Assembly: GCF_010119975.1 (NCBI RefSeq)
Contig: NZ_CP048222.1
Span: 2,932,501 to 2,996,500 of the forward strand
Source: Rhodocytophaga rosea
Lineage (GTDB): Bacteria; Bacteroidota; Bacteroidia; Cytophagales; 172606-1
DNA: 64,000 nt
Direction: 5' to 3'
The notes beneath the pieces are model-generated. The model did no database searches. It was not told the origin of the DNA and saw only the letters and a program-made list of their open reading frames with translations. Shown piece after piece: positions 57,915 to 61,154 of this stretch. The position numbers were made by a program, and so were the translations under genes. Each line of letters opens with the position of its first letter. The stretch's first letter is position 1.

Positions 57915-58156
57915 CCTCAGTCTCTCTCGAAAAAGTGGACATTAAGATAAGAGCTATTTGTGAAAATCTATAGGTAAGTTGATAGATTAAAACTCCATGA
58001 GCTAAGTTATATAATATTCCCCTTTCTGTTAACTTAAAAAATAGATTTTACACCTGCACTTTTTCAACTTTTTTTAAGTGGGAACTCCACTTGTGAATTT
58101 ATTTGGAGATAAGCTATGTTTACAAGCGTGATTTATAAAAAAGAGTATCTGGAGAA
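57915..58156. other. Spacer between IS elements with one stray IS end
   Basis: GTGGACATTAAGATAAGAG at 57935-57953 matches, with one difference, the left end of the next element at 58303-58321. A small hairpin AAGTGG / CCACTT lies near 58077-58093. It is probably debris from earlier insertions. Confidence 0.5.
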
Positions 58157-58284
58157 TGGACTTGCAACAAAATTGTGGACAATAAATTAAGCAACTAACA
58201 CATATTGATTTAAAAGTTGCTCCATCTGGGCTGGTGTTCTATATCCCAGAGAGGAATGCAGTCTTTTCCTGTTGTACCAGATTT
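58157..58284 (-). mobile_element. Inverted 128-bp end of IS3 element (2)
   Basis: These 128 bp are the reverse complement of 59477-59604, the right end of the adjacent element, including the terminal TGGACTTGCAAC. The older inverted copy continues on the other side of the full element: 59605-59624 matches the next 20 bases of the same sequence. The full element has therefore inserted into it. Confidence 0.9.
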
Positions 58285-58336
58285 TGATCTTGCTACATTT
58301 GGGTGGACATTAAGTTAAGAGAAAATACTTAACTTA

Positions 58337-58618
58337 ATGAAAATGGGACAAAGAAGAAAATTCGACAAGGAGTTCAAACTAATGACTGTTGAACTTAGTA
58401 AGAGCAGAAAAAATTTAGTAGATCTGGCTAAAGAATTGGATATCAAAATTGGATTGATTTATCGCTGGCGCCGTGAGTTTTTAGACAAGAGGGAGGGAAG
58501 TTTTCCTGGCCATGGAAAACCAAAACAAACCCCTGAAGAAGCAGAAATAGCCCGTCTAAAGAAGGCATTAAAGGATGCAGAAATGGAAAGGGATATGGAG
58601 CCGATGCTCACAACGTAG
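58337..58618 (+). pseudogene. OrfA of IS3 element (2), ended by an insert
   Basis: The first 86 residues are a normal IS3 OrfA: the HTH (RRKFDKEFKLMTVELSKSRKNLVDLAKELDIKIGLIYRWR) and the start of the zipper (EIARLKKALKDAEMERD). The expected continuation ILKKAVSIFSR is displaced by a 30-bp insert (net 27 bp) at 58597-58626, which brings an in-frame TAG at 58616. After the insert the normal sequence resumes (KKAVSIFSRNDGRY). Confidence 0.85.
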
Positions 58619-58626
58619 GCAGGTCC
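58597..58626 (+). repeat. 30-bp GC-rich insert, copy 1
   Basis: It begins GGAGCCGATG and ends GGCAGGTCC. Without it the OrfA reading frame would be intact. It is an inverted copy of the insert at 59064-59093, matching at 25 of 30 positions. CGATG and CAACG inside it can pair imperfectly, and the outer GGA / TCC bases also pair. Confidence 0.75.
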
Positions 58627-58713
58627 AAAAAAGGCGGTCAGCATCTTTTCCAGGAACGATGGGAGATATTCCAATTCATAAAGGATAATCACACTGTATA
58701 CCCCATTGAGAAG

Positions 58714-59574
58714 ATGTGCAAAGCCTTTCAAGTAAGTAAAAGTGGATATTATGGATGGATAAACAGTGAGCCATCTAAACGAGCTACAGAGAACCGGGAA
58801 ATTCTTCAACAGATCAGAGTGATCCATAAGGAGAGTGGCCAGACCTATGGTAGCCCAAGAATCAGTAAAGCCTTGAAAGCGAATAACATTTCAGTTTCCA
58901 GACCCAGGGTTGCCCGCTTAATGAAGCAGGCTGAGCTTAGGGCAAAAAGAATTAAAAGGTATAAGGTCACTACGGATTCAAAGCATAGCTATCCGGTGAG
59001 TGAAAATCTACTGGATCGAAATTTTACAGCTAATGCAACAGGTCAGGCCTGGGTATCAGACATGGACCTGCAGACGATGTCAGCATCGGGTCCACTTATA
59101 TCAGAACCATTACAGGTTGGCTATATCTTACGGTGGTACTGGATTTGGCAGACAGAAAGATTATTGGCTCTCGCCTTGAGTAAAACCATGAAGGCCAAAG
59201 AGACGACAATAGCAGCATTAAAAATGGCTATAAAAAACAGGCCCGTGATCCAACCTCTAATATTTCATTCAGACAGGGGTATACAGTATGCCTGTGATGA
59301 ATTTAGGCAAGAATTAGGTACATATCCTCTTATTAAGCCAAGCATGAGTCGAAAAGGGAATTGTTGGGATAATGCTGTCGCAGAAAGCTTCTTTAAGACC
59401 CTGAAAGTGGAATGTGTATATGATTATAAGTTTGCCCATCAGCAGCAAGCGGCTACCACTGTTTTTGAATATATAGAAATCTGGTACAACAGGAAAAGAC
59501 TGCATTCCTCTCTGGGATATAGAACACCAGCCCAGATGGAGCAACTTTTAAATCAATATGTGTTAGTTGCTTAA
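58714..59574 (+). pseudogene. OrfB of IS3 element (2), scrambled by an insert
   Basis: This 286-aa open frame begins within the usual HTH_21 (MCKAFQVSKSGYYGW) and keeps the later DDE parts (HSDRGIQYA, GNCWDNAVAESFF, YNRKRLHSSLGYRTPAQME). After AWVSD the expected ITYIRT...GWLYLTVVLDLADRKIIGW is replaced: a 30-bp insert (net 29 bp) shifts the frame. The next roughly 30 residues (SEPLQVGYILRWYWIWQTE) are out of frame, until one extra base near 59175 restores it. The frame stays open but the catalytic core is damaged. Confidence 0.85.
59064..59093 (-). repeat. 30-bp GC-rich insert, copy 2 (inverted)
   Basis: It begins GGACCTGCAG and ends ATCGGGTCC. Read on the minus strand it aligns with copy 1 at 25 of 30 positions. 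It contains CGATG and CATCG separated by four bases, and outer GGACC / GGTCC, so it can fold as a hairpin with a one-sided bulge. Confidence 0.75.
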
Positions 59575-59604
59575 TTTATTGTCCACAATTTTGTTGCAAG
59601 TCCA

Positions 59605-59624
59605 ATTTCTATATATTCAAAAAC
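59605..59624 (-). mobile_element. 20-bp stub of the older inverted IS (2) copy
   Basis: The bases 59605-59624 are the reverse complement of 59461-59480 and continue the older inverted copy whose end lies at 58157-58284. The match stops exactly at the left end of element (3). Confidence 0.85.
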
Positions 59625-59695
59625 TGATCTTCCCCCGTTAAAAAGTACTAAAAGTTAAGCTAATCCTTAATTTACCAACAAAACAAATAACAGGG

Positions 59696-59980
59696 ATGGC
59701 TAATAGAAAAACATATCCAAAAGAGTTTAAAGAACAGGCTGTTAGGCTATTGCAAAAAAATGGCAATAAAAGTCAAGTTGCCAGAGAATTAGGTGTCACT
59801 TCTGGTATGCTCGCTCGTTGGGAGCAGCAAGCAATGCAGGATGGCGAAAAAGCTTTTCCCGGCAAGGGGAAGCCCCAAGATGAAGAACTGTATCAATTAA
59901 AGAAAGAAGTCTCTCGTTTAAAAGAGGAGAATGAAATTTTAAAAAAGGCAATGGGTATCTTCATCAAGCGCCCTCAGTAA
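59696..59980 (+). CDS. IS3-family transposase OrfA (element 3)
   Basis: This 94-aa protein has an intact HTH (YPKEFKEQAVRLLQKNGNKSQVARELGVTSGMLARWEQQ) and zipper (YQLKKEVSRLKEENEILKKAMGIF). The A-AAA-AAG heptamer at 59941-59947 lies in the LKK codons, the standard IS3 minus-1 frameshift site. Confidence 0.93.
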   Translation: MANRKTYPKEFKEQAVRLLQKNGNKSQVARELGVTSGMLARWEQQAMQDGEKAFPGKGKPQDEELYQLKKEVSRLKEENEILKKAMGIFIKRPQ

Positions 59981-60021
59981 GATACCTGTTTATCCACCAA
60001 CATAGAGGGCAGTTTTCACTT

Positions 60022-60852
60022 TTGGCATTATTGAGAACGATGCAGGTATCCAAAAGTGGTTATTACACTTGGCGAAAGCAGAAAGAATGCGAGAAAACAA
60101 AAGAAAATAAGCAGTTACTTAAAGAGATCCATAAGATACATCAAGCAAGTAAGCAAACCTATGGCAGTCCCCGGATTCACGCTCATTTAAAAGCAAATGG
60201 ATTCAAGTATGGAGAAAAAAGAATAGCTCGGCTAATGCGTTTGAATGGAATAAAGCCAAAATGGAAAAAGAAATTTAAGATTACTACCGATTCCAGACAT
60301 TCGCTTCCGGTGGCTAATAATAAATTAAATCAGGACTTTAAAGTAACAGTTCCGAATCAGAAATGGACTGCTGATATTACCTATGTGTGGACTAAAGAGG
60401 GATGGCTATATTTAGCTGTTGTACTGGATTTATTTTCCAGACGTATAGTAGGATGGTCTATGCAAGCAAATTTAAGCAGAAAATTAGTAATAGGAGCATT
60501 ACAAATGGCTACTCAAACACGTCATCCTCCTGATGGATTACTTCATCATTCAGATAGAGGATCTCAATATGCTAGCCAAGATTATCAGCAATTACTTGAC
60601 CGAGCAGGTATGGTTTGTAGTATGAGCCGGAAAGGGAATTGTTATGATAATGCCCCTACAGAAAGCTTTTTTGCCACGCTAAAAAGAGAATTGATACATC
60701 ATCGGCGTTATCAAAGCCGGATAGAAGCAAAAGAAGATATTTTTCAATATATAGAGGTATGGTACAACCGAAAACGAAGGCATTCCTCCTTAGGTTATTT
60801 AAGTCCTGAGGAGTACGAGAAAGTAAACCAATCATTGAAAATTGCTGCTTAA
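60022..60852 (+). CDS. IS3-family transposase OrfB, rve integrase core (element 3)
   Basis: This 276-aa frame has HTH_21 (LLRTMQVSKSGYYTWRK), KWTADITYVWTKEGWLYLAVVLDLFSRRIVGW (first Asp), HHSDRGSQYAS (second Asp) and SRKGNCYDNAPTESFFATLK (Glu). The C-terminal YNRKRRHSSLGYLSPEEYE is normal. It is in the minus-1 frame relative to OrfA and is probably expressed as an OrfAB fusion. In contrast to element (2) it is undamaged, so it shows what that copy would look like without its inserts. Confidence 0.93.
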   Translation: MALLRTMQVSKSGYYTWRKQKECEKTKENKQLLKEIHKIHQASKQTYGSPRIHAHLKANGFKYGEKRIARLMRLNGIKPKWKKKFKITTDSRHSLPVANNKLNQDFKVTVPNQKWTADITYVWTKEGWLYLAVVLDLFSRRIVGWSMQANLSRKLVIGALQMATQTRHPPDGLLHHSDRGSQYASQDYQQLLDRAGMVCSMSRKGNCYDNAPTESFFATLKRELIHHRRYQSRIEAKEDIFQYIEVWYNRKRRHSSLGYLSPEEYEKVNQSLKIAA

Positions 60853-61154
60853 CTAAAAGTTCGTAATAAGGGGGGAAACCCAGTTGGTTATTAAGTTAAA
60901 AATACAGCCAATGATATATAGAAGTACTCACCTTCGCCTTCCATTAACAATTTCTTAATTTTAATAAAAATTCCATACAACTTTGAATATTTCTATTCAA
61001 GAAAAAATATCGAATATCTTACATTTTAAATAAAAAAATCCGAAAAGATTTATAAGCAGCTATCGAAAAACTACATATGAAAATTCAAGCTATACTTTGC
61101 TTTTTAATCCTTTATTCAAATAGTTTATCAAAATGAATTAGAATTATGGTTTAA

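Follow-up and report, generated by a model that had tools for sequence, protein, structure and literature searches.

Tiny hairpin inserts dispersed in transposase genes of Rhodocytophaga rosea, very probably mobile and perhaps skipped at expression

The window analyzed here, a stretch of 64,000 nucleotides of the single-contig Rhodocytophaga rosea genome (8,983,451 bases, 8.98 Mb), harbors an IS3-family element with two inserts of 30 bp, one at the end of the OrfA reading frame and the other within OrfB (Table 1). Directly beside the left end of this IS, at positions 58143-58284, part of its right end is repeated in inverted orientation (96%).

Table 1. Features of the insert-bearing IS3 element, in window positions; the strand of the inserts is given relative to GGACCWGC...GCATCGGNTCC
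Feature	Position	Strand	Remarks
IS3-family element with both inserts	58285..59605 (ends approximate)	+	Genome has 8 full-length copies, each of them filled
OrfA reading frame, 93 aa	58337..58618	+	Ended by a TAG within insert 1
Insert 1, class I, 30 bp	58597..58626	-	Site 33/34 (LKKA), immediately 5' of A_AAA_AAG; replaces 3 host bases by comparison with homologues, net +27
OrfB open frame, 286 aa	58714..59574	+	Reads through insert 2; an additional base near 59169 brings back the ancestral frame
Insert 2, class I, 30 bp	59064..59093	+	Site 181 (DI|T) of OrfB; replaces 1 host base, and the net gain of 29 breaks the frame
Additional base (+1) in OrfB, separate from the inserts	59167..59173	+	At residue 206; other copies align gap-free through it

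The first insert reads GGAGCCGATGCTCACAACGTAGGCAGGTCC and the second GGACCTGCAGACGATGTCAGCATCGGGTCC. They are equal at 25 of 30 positions on opposite strands, versus 14 of 30 in direct orientation, in agreement with a preliminary description of this DNA which had presented them as inverted copies of each other. Their richness in G + C, also claimed there, is apparent (0.63 for each, as against 0.41 for the IS and for the window), both follow the bases AT as had been stated, and the proposed replacement of one to three host bases is borne out by comparison with insert-free homologues. A search of the window with their joint pattern gave no further match, and 100 shuffles of the window gave none. 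No match to the covariance models of Rfam 15 was obtained at E values up to 1 for positions 58150-59640, a range that covers the two inserts of this IS.

Eight full-length copies of the window IS are present in the genome, with a near-identical core, differing outer flanks and both inserts in each, whereas its next homologue is only 68% identical. The presence of both inserts in all eight copies indicates that they predate the last amplification of the IS. The empty sites which the preliminary description had expected in other copies of this IS are therefore lacking there and are found instead in related ISs. It had also considered that the segments might be an ancestral part of the element; this agrees with the filling of every copy and fails otherwise, since IS3 relatives lack the inserts and the same element is present in other ISs and at other sites, making it non-ancestral to IS3. 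The neighbor at 59625-60882, taken there as an intact comparison copy, turned out to be a distant IS3 member (39% in OrfB) and not the same IS.

When up to three mismatches were allowed, the 30-mer pattern was found at 26 places in its own genome, the two of the window included, so that further copies do exist; the reversed-pattern control gave none. Together with the lack of matches in shuffled sequence, this rules out chance similarity, and its recurrence, many times over in a genome assembled as one contig and again in several other assemblies, makes an assembly artefact very unlikely. The remaining places are mostly in other ISs, several divergent IS3 members being filled at the same OrfA site just before A_AAA_AAG, and others elsewhere. 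A pattern with a free middle, GGACCNGC...GCATCGGNTCC, had 43 matches in the same genome; of seven further genomes from the family, three gave 5, 7 and 22 matches and four gave none, and its reversed control matched once in total (genome G006). In one genome (G007), a lone match to the 30-mer with two mismatches was not repeated with the free-middle pattern.

Alignment of interrupted with intact transposases revealed further inserts of other sequence with the same ends, and the 30-mer is one branch of a larger family of 26-34 bp, bounded by GGACC...GGTCC, with a length peak at 30 bp. In the fetched loci, which were partly chosen for the element, 94 GGACC..GGTCC pairs have a total length of 15-69, of which 51 measure exactly 30 and 82 fall within 26-34. 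Without selection, the own genome has 46 GGACC...GGTCC places of length 26-34, 30 of them of exactly 30 bp. The total of 46 is no evidence in itself, since the reversed pattern CCAGG...CCTGG is commoner there (191 versus 46), the evidence being the peak at 30 together with the hosts: as read by eye, transposases account for 27 of the 30 places of exactly 30 bp and ordinary open frames for two, with one left uncertain. The inserts do not appear to be what remains of a larger element whose ends were the two halves, as the halves were searched in four genomes and no larger element was present among the extra matches read; several of the extra matches obtained as loci are short inserts with variable middles, and others are chance-like. 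Shorter hairpin-like inserts of net 16-19 nt, such as GAACCATTATGGTTC or GGAGCATGACGCTCC, interrupt IS3 OrfB at loci L138, L033, L249, L043, L226 and L144, and possibly form a second size class. At OrfB site 208 of locus L194, an insert of 55-58 nt resembles one hairpin insert inside another.

The elements are more stably folded than shuffled sequences, with a mean over all 118 of -10.4 kcal/mol versus -6.3, and of -3.55 versus -1.87 once the ends are removed. Class II inserts (27 sequences) have two interleaved stems in the order A B A' B'. When 3' halves were dealt out anew as a null, 73 of 108 cells were paired in stem A against 53.3 (sd 3.6) and 77 of 108 in stem B against 57.2 (sd 4.4), neither being reached in any of 2000 shuffles, and the inner stem of class I covaries more weakly (reached by 17 of 2000), all these shuffles overstating significance because related sequences share ancestry. 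Their sequence would allow class II inserts to fold as a pseudoknot or as either of two hairpins. The A B A' B' order is the same on both strands, which fits the presence of class II in either orientation, and conservation of the stems may reflect mobility rather than expression.

The borders of the inserts follow a simple rule: the base before the insert is a pyrimidine and the base after it a purine in 107 of 118 distinct contexts, from which five chance matches had been removed beforehand and among which others may remain, compared to 21-32 of 118 at offsets 2 to 8. A purine starts 198 of 210 distinct outer flanks, and no strong consensus was found beyond that base. An extra stem pair made by the two flanking bases was also considered and rejected, C-A being observed in 26 of 118 cases against 26.0 expected from the single frequencies. 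Both borders are thus pyrimidine-purine steps (Y|G, C|R) of the kind at which a transcript might be cleaved and religated, no ribosomal skipping being involved, and the outer stem would bring the ends together. Such removal at the RNA level is nevertheless improbable, since a transcript cut exactly at the insert ends would, at the usual site, lack one base of the reading frame, and no candidate enzyme was found.

This shortage is visible in the comparison of IS3 inserts with intact homologues, where exactly one host base is missing in 21 of 30 cases and two in four, the five others deviating singly, in a set that omits events of other length or without recognizable GGA...TCC ends. One IS3 group has three host bases missing. 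The length of the insert varies (29, 30 and 32) with the missing base staying at one. The search for empty homologues covered 81 insert instances, many of which have none. None of the 30 IS3 inserts has a net length divisible by 3; exceptions outside these 30 are the OrfA site of the window (net 27) and an IS5-like IS with a 28-bp insert, in frame. The latter provides an empty site at the DNA level: where it carries the insert, two relatives with roughly 80% identity are shorter by 27 bases. A rule of length 3n+2 fell, with net lengths ranging from 26 to 32. Inverted ends are present as in MITEs, but a base is usually missing at the target site instead of being duplicated.

In the numbering of an intact frame of 338 residues, divergent IS3 genes share recurrent insertion sites at 34 (LKKA), 107 (T|YGSPR), 130, 181 (DI|T), 208 (GWA) and 269 (KGN|C|YDN), several of which adjoin motifs that we take to be catalytic in DDE transposases. 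Up to seven insertions of at least 13 nt are present in one gene, not all with GGACC ends. The recurrence of these sites in related ISs, some with nearly identical inserts at the same site, could suggest old regulatory structures of IS3 transposons that are inherited vertically and do not move. This is very improbable given that the same insert sequence is present at different sites and in other IS families, that relatives have empty sites, and that one site may hold different insert classes in different ISs or, as at 34 and 269, inserts of opposite orientation. The inserts are thus a dispersed family of tiny hairpins in transposase genes, as the preliminary description had glimpsed in proposing a very small repeat that can enter coding DNA in both orientations, and their distribution makes it very likely that they are mobile. 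That description had not extended to the wider family with members below and above 30 bp, to the rule of a pyrimidine before and a purine after the insert, to genes that hold several inserts or to the limited range of hosts.

The hosts identified are transposase genes of five kinds. Frames flanking the inserts match rve in the case of IS3, and the other matches are to IS91 (PF14319), DDE_3 (IS630-like), DUF4096/DDE_Tnp_1 (IS5-like) and Transposase_mut (IS256-like); of 10 peptides compared for these, four matched a transposase family above the cut-off, one gave a weak HTH match and five matched nothing. Other hosts, judging by their motifs, are presumably IS1182-like, IS1-like and IS481-like. 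No insert was found in an ordinary gene among the identified hosts, and in five ordinary genes with a chance match in the 26-34 length range the frame is open straight through.

Class I was detected in four of 390 genomes of the order, all in one family and including the own genome, and class II in one of 395 genomes of the class, namely the own genome, which alone represented its family in that sample. An exact scan of contigs, which perhaps left out the own genome, retrieved class I from Rhodocytophaga aerolata, from two Cytophagales MAGs and from nothing else. Genome G001, of the same genus as the window, shares a 150-base context at its insert with the R. aerolata record, in keeping with a most likely placement of the window in Rhodocytophaga. 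Viral contigs had no exact match to either insert pattern, and plasmids gave three weak matches to one 30-mer, none of them convincing. Within the genomes searched, the family therefore seems confined to the family of Rhodocytophaga. The own genome has five Y1_Tnp matches, and no link between these and the inserts was seen. Y1 transposases (PF01797) are matched at positions 8883265, 11174 and 3020690 (loci L309-L311), one of them beside an insert-rich IS3, and they are a candidate mobilizer. Searches of the open-licence PMC literature brought up no description of this GGACC/GGTCC insert family.

Interrupted OrfB proteins are under purifying selection, with a dN/dS of 0.09-0.39 over 13 OrfB pairs in which both members bear inserts (pS 0.02-0.68, at least 120 shared codons, stop codons excluded), for example 0.24 at pS 0.33 and 0.39 at pS 0.27. 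The alignment took 18 of 20 loci, and 16 of these have inserts of at least 13 nt, some without GGACC ends. Nine of the 16 insert-bearing genes are free of frameshifts of one or two bases and five have neither a frameshift nor an in-frame stop; eight hold one to three in-frame stops, some of which may lie ahead of OrfB. Near-identical filled copies exist for three ISs, namely the window IS (eight), the IS5-like IS (seven) and another IS (five), with no other copy above 83% identity; about 370 bases of each of the last two were searched for these counts. In the IS5-like IS, a frame of 270 residues stays open across the 28-bp insert, and the two empty relatives that were read are devoid of a full-length frame.

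The main rival explanation is that the same mobile elements kill the transposase at each insertion, either as selfish DNA in dispensable genes or planted by a host system, and that the filled ISs multiplied through a transposase acting in trans or through gene conversion. The low dN/dS among genes sharing insert sites, the amplification of three separate ISs only in their filled form and the lack of a full-length frame in both empty relatives are difficult to reconcile with inactivation. It nevertheless agrees with net lengths that are never a multiple of 3 in the 30 IS3 inserts, 10 of which put a stop in the incoming frame, with the in-frame stops of half of the aligned genes and with the second lesion of the window IS. 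The restriction of identified hosts to transposases, the chance matches in ordinary genes sitting in unbroken frames, also speaks for it, as does the existence in the own genome of intact distant IS3 genes, which might act in trans. Inactivation is a real possibility, only a little less likely than the reading favored here.

We favor skipping or removal over inactivation with help in trans, and regard the whole reading, that of mobile micro-inserts which would be tolerated and perhaps skipped at expression, as only a little short of an even chance. The inserts would move by means of an enzyme supplied in trans, the hairpin being the form that it recognizes, and would persist since the interrupted gene could still yield transposase. 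The folded segment would be skipped during expression as in mobile bypass inserts, which are called byps, and skipping could possibly keep transposase output low. One uniform skip does not fit, since the inserts differ in how many host bases they replace and, judged by eye, there is no one left-over base that would bring back every conserved residue. Codon matching of the T4 type was rejected, take-off and landing codons being identical in one of 27 inserts versus 0.79 expected, and so was reinitiation at an ATG after the insert, since ATG starts 28 of 236 outer flanks with no constant frame by eye. Other observations also argue against skipping. Half of the 16 aligned genes hold in-frame stops, and the multi-copy IS5-like IS is read in frame through its insert. 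Efficient skipping should allow inserts in ordinary genes, where none was found, and the window IS reached eight copies although a correct skip of insert 2 would leave OrfB ending soon after, through its additional base near 59169.

Should insertion inactivate the transposase, the inserts would represent an undescribed kind of transposon control, and in either case the genes that bear them are likely annotated as pseudogenes. To our knowledge, 30 bp is close to the smallest size for mobile DNA living inside genes. The small dispersed repeats of cyanobacteria, very small mobile repeats of around 21-27 bp, are similar in size but are not known to be tied to transposase genes, in which the present inserts sit. 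Rickettsia palindromic elements are longer and translated in frame, unlike the inserts described here, which are around 30 bp and mostly frame-breaking, none of the 30 in IS3 having a net length of 3n. What the two share is the presence of small palindromic inserts inside protein genes (PMC2229807). REP sequences, which go with RAYT transposases, are palindromic repeats of 20-40 bp and REPINs are thought to spread within a genome and form hairpins; REPs are extragenic, many of them with end tags GTAG or CGTC, whereas the present inserts have GGACC/GGTCC ends and lie in transposase coding sequence (PMC3116915, PMC3733652). None of the identified inserts is extragenic, all being within transposase frames.

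A likeness in mode of life is to the frame-breaking inserts of mitochondrial genes in Magnusiomyces capitatus, and to the bypass of phage T4 gene 60, as presented in a review (PMC5009743). Like byps, the inserts are short frame-breaking blocks of nucleotides, many per genome, in genes that should still work, and stem loops matter in T4; several M. capitatus cases are also without perfect take-off and landing matches, according to the same review (PMC5009743). The inserts are likewise short and frame-breaking in conserved coding sequence and absent from relatives. Unlike byps, they are in a bacterial chromosome, with transposases as the only identified hosts and unmatched take-off and landing codons. 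That they are a bacterial counterpart of byps, namely mobile folded inserts of about 30 nt in the most conserved transposase motifs of several IS families, up to seven per gene, which would be removed or skipped in transposons active and multiplying while interrupted, is a tentative proposal that we hold at clearly under an even chance.

Prevotella loescheii is a member of the Bacteroidota. A translational hop of 29 nt has been reported in its plaA gene (PMC3022353, PMC5009743), a report not followed up according to the review; 29 is also the commonest net insertion here, which may be a coincidence. Few cases of skipped coding gaps are given in that review besides those of phage T4 and a yeast mitochondrion (PMC5009743). 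If the interrupted genes are still expressed, the inserts would constitute a bacterial system for many-fold skipping of coding gaps, in hosts that include a named culturable species (Rhodocytophaga aerolata).
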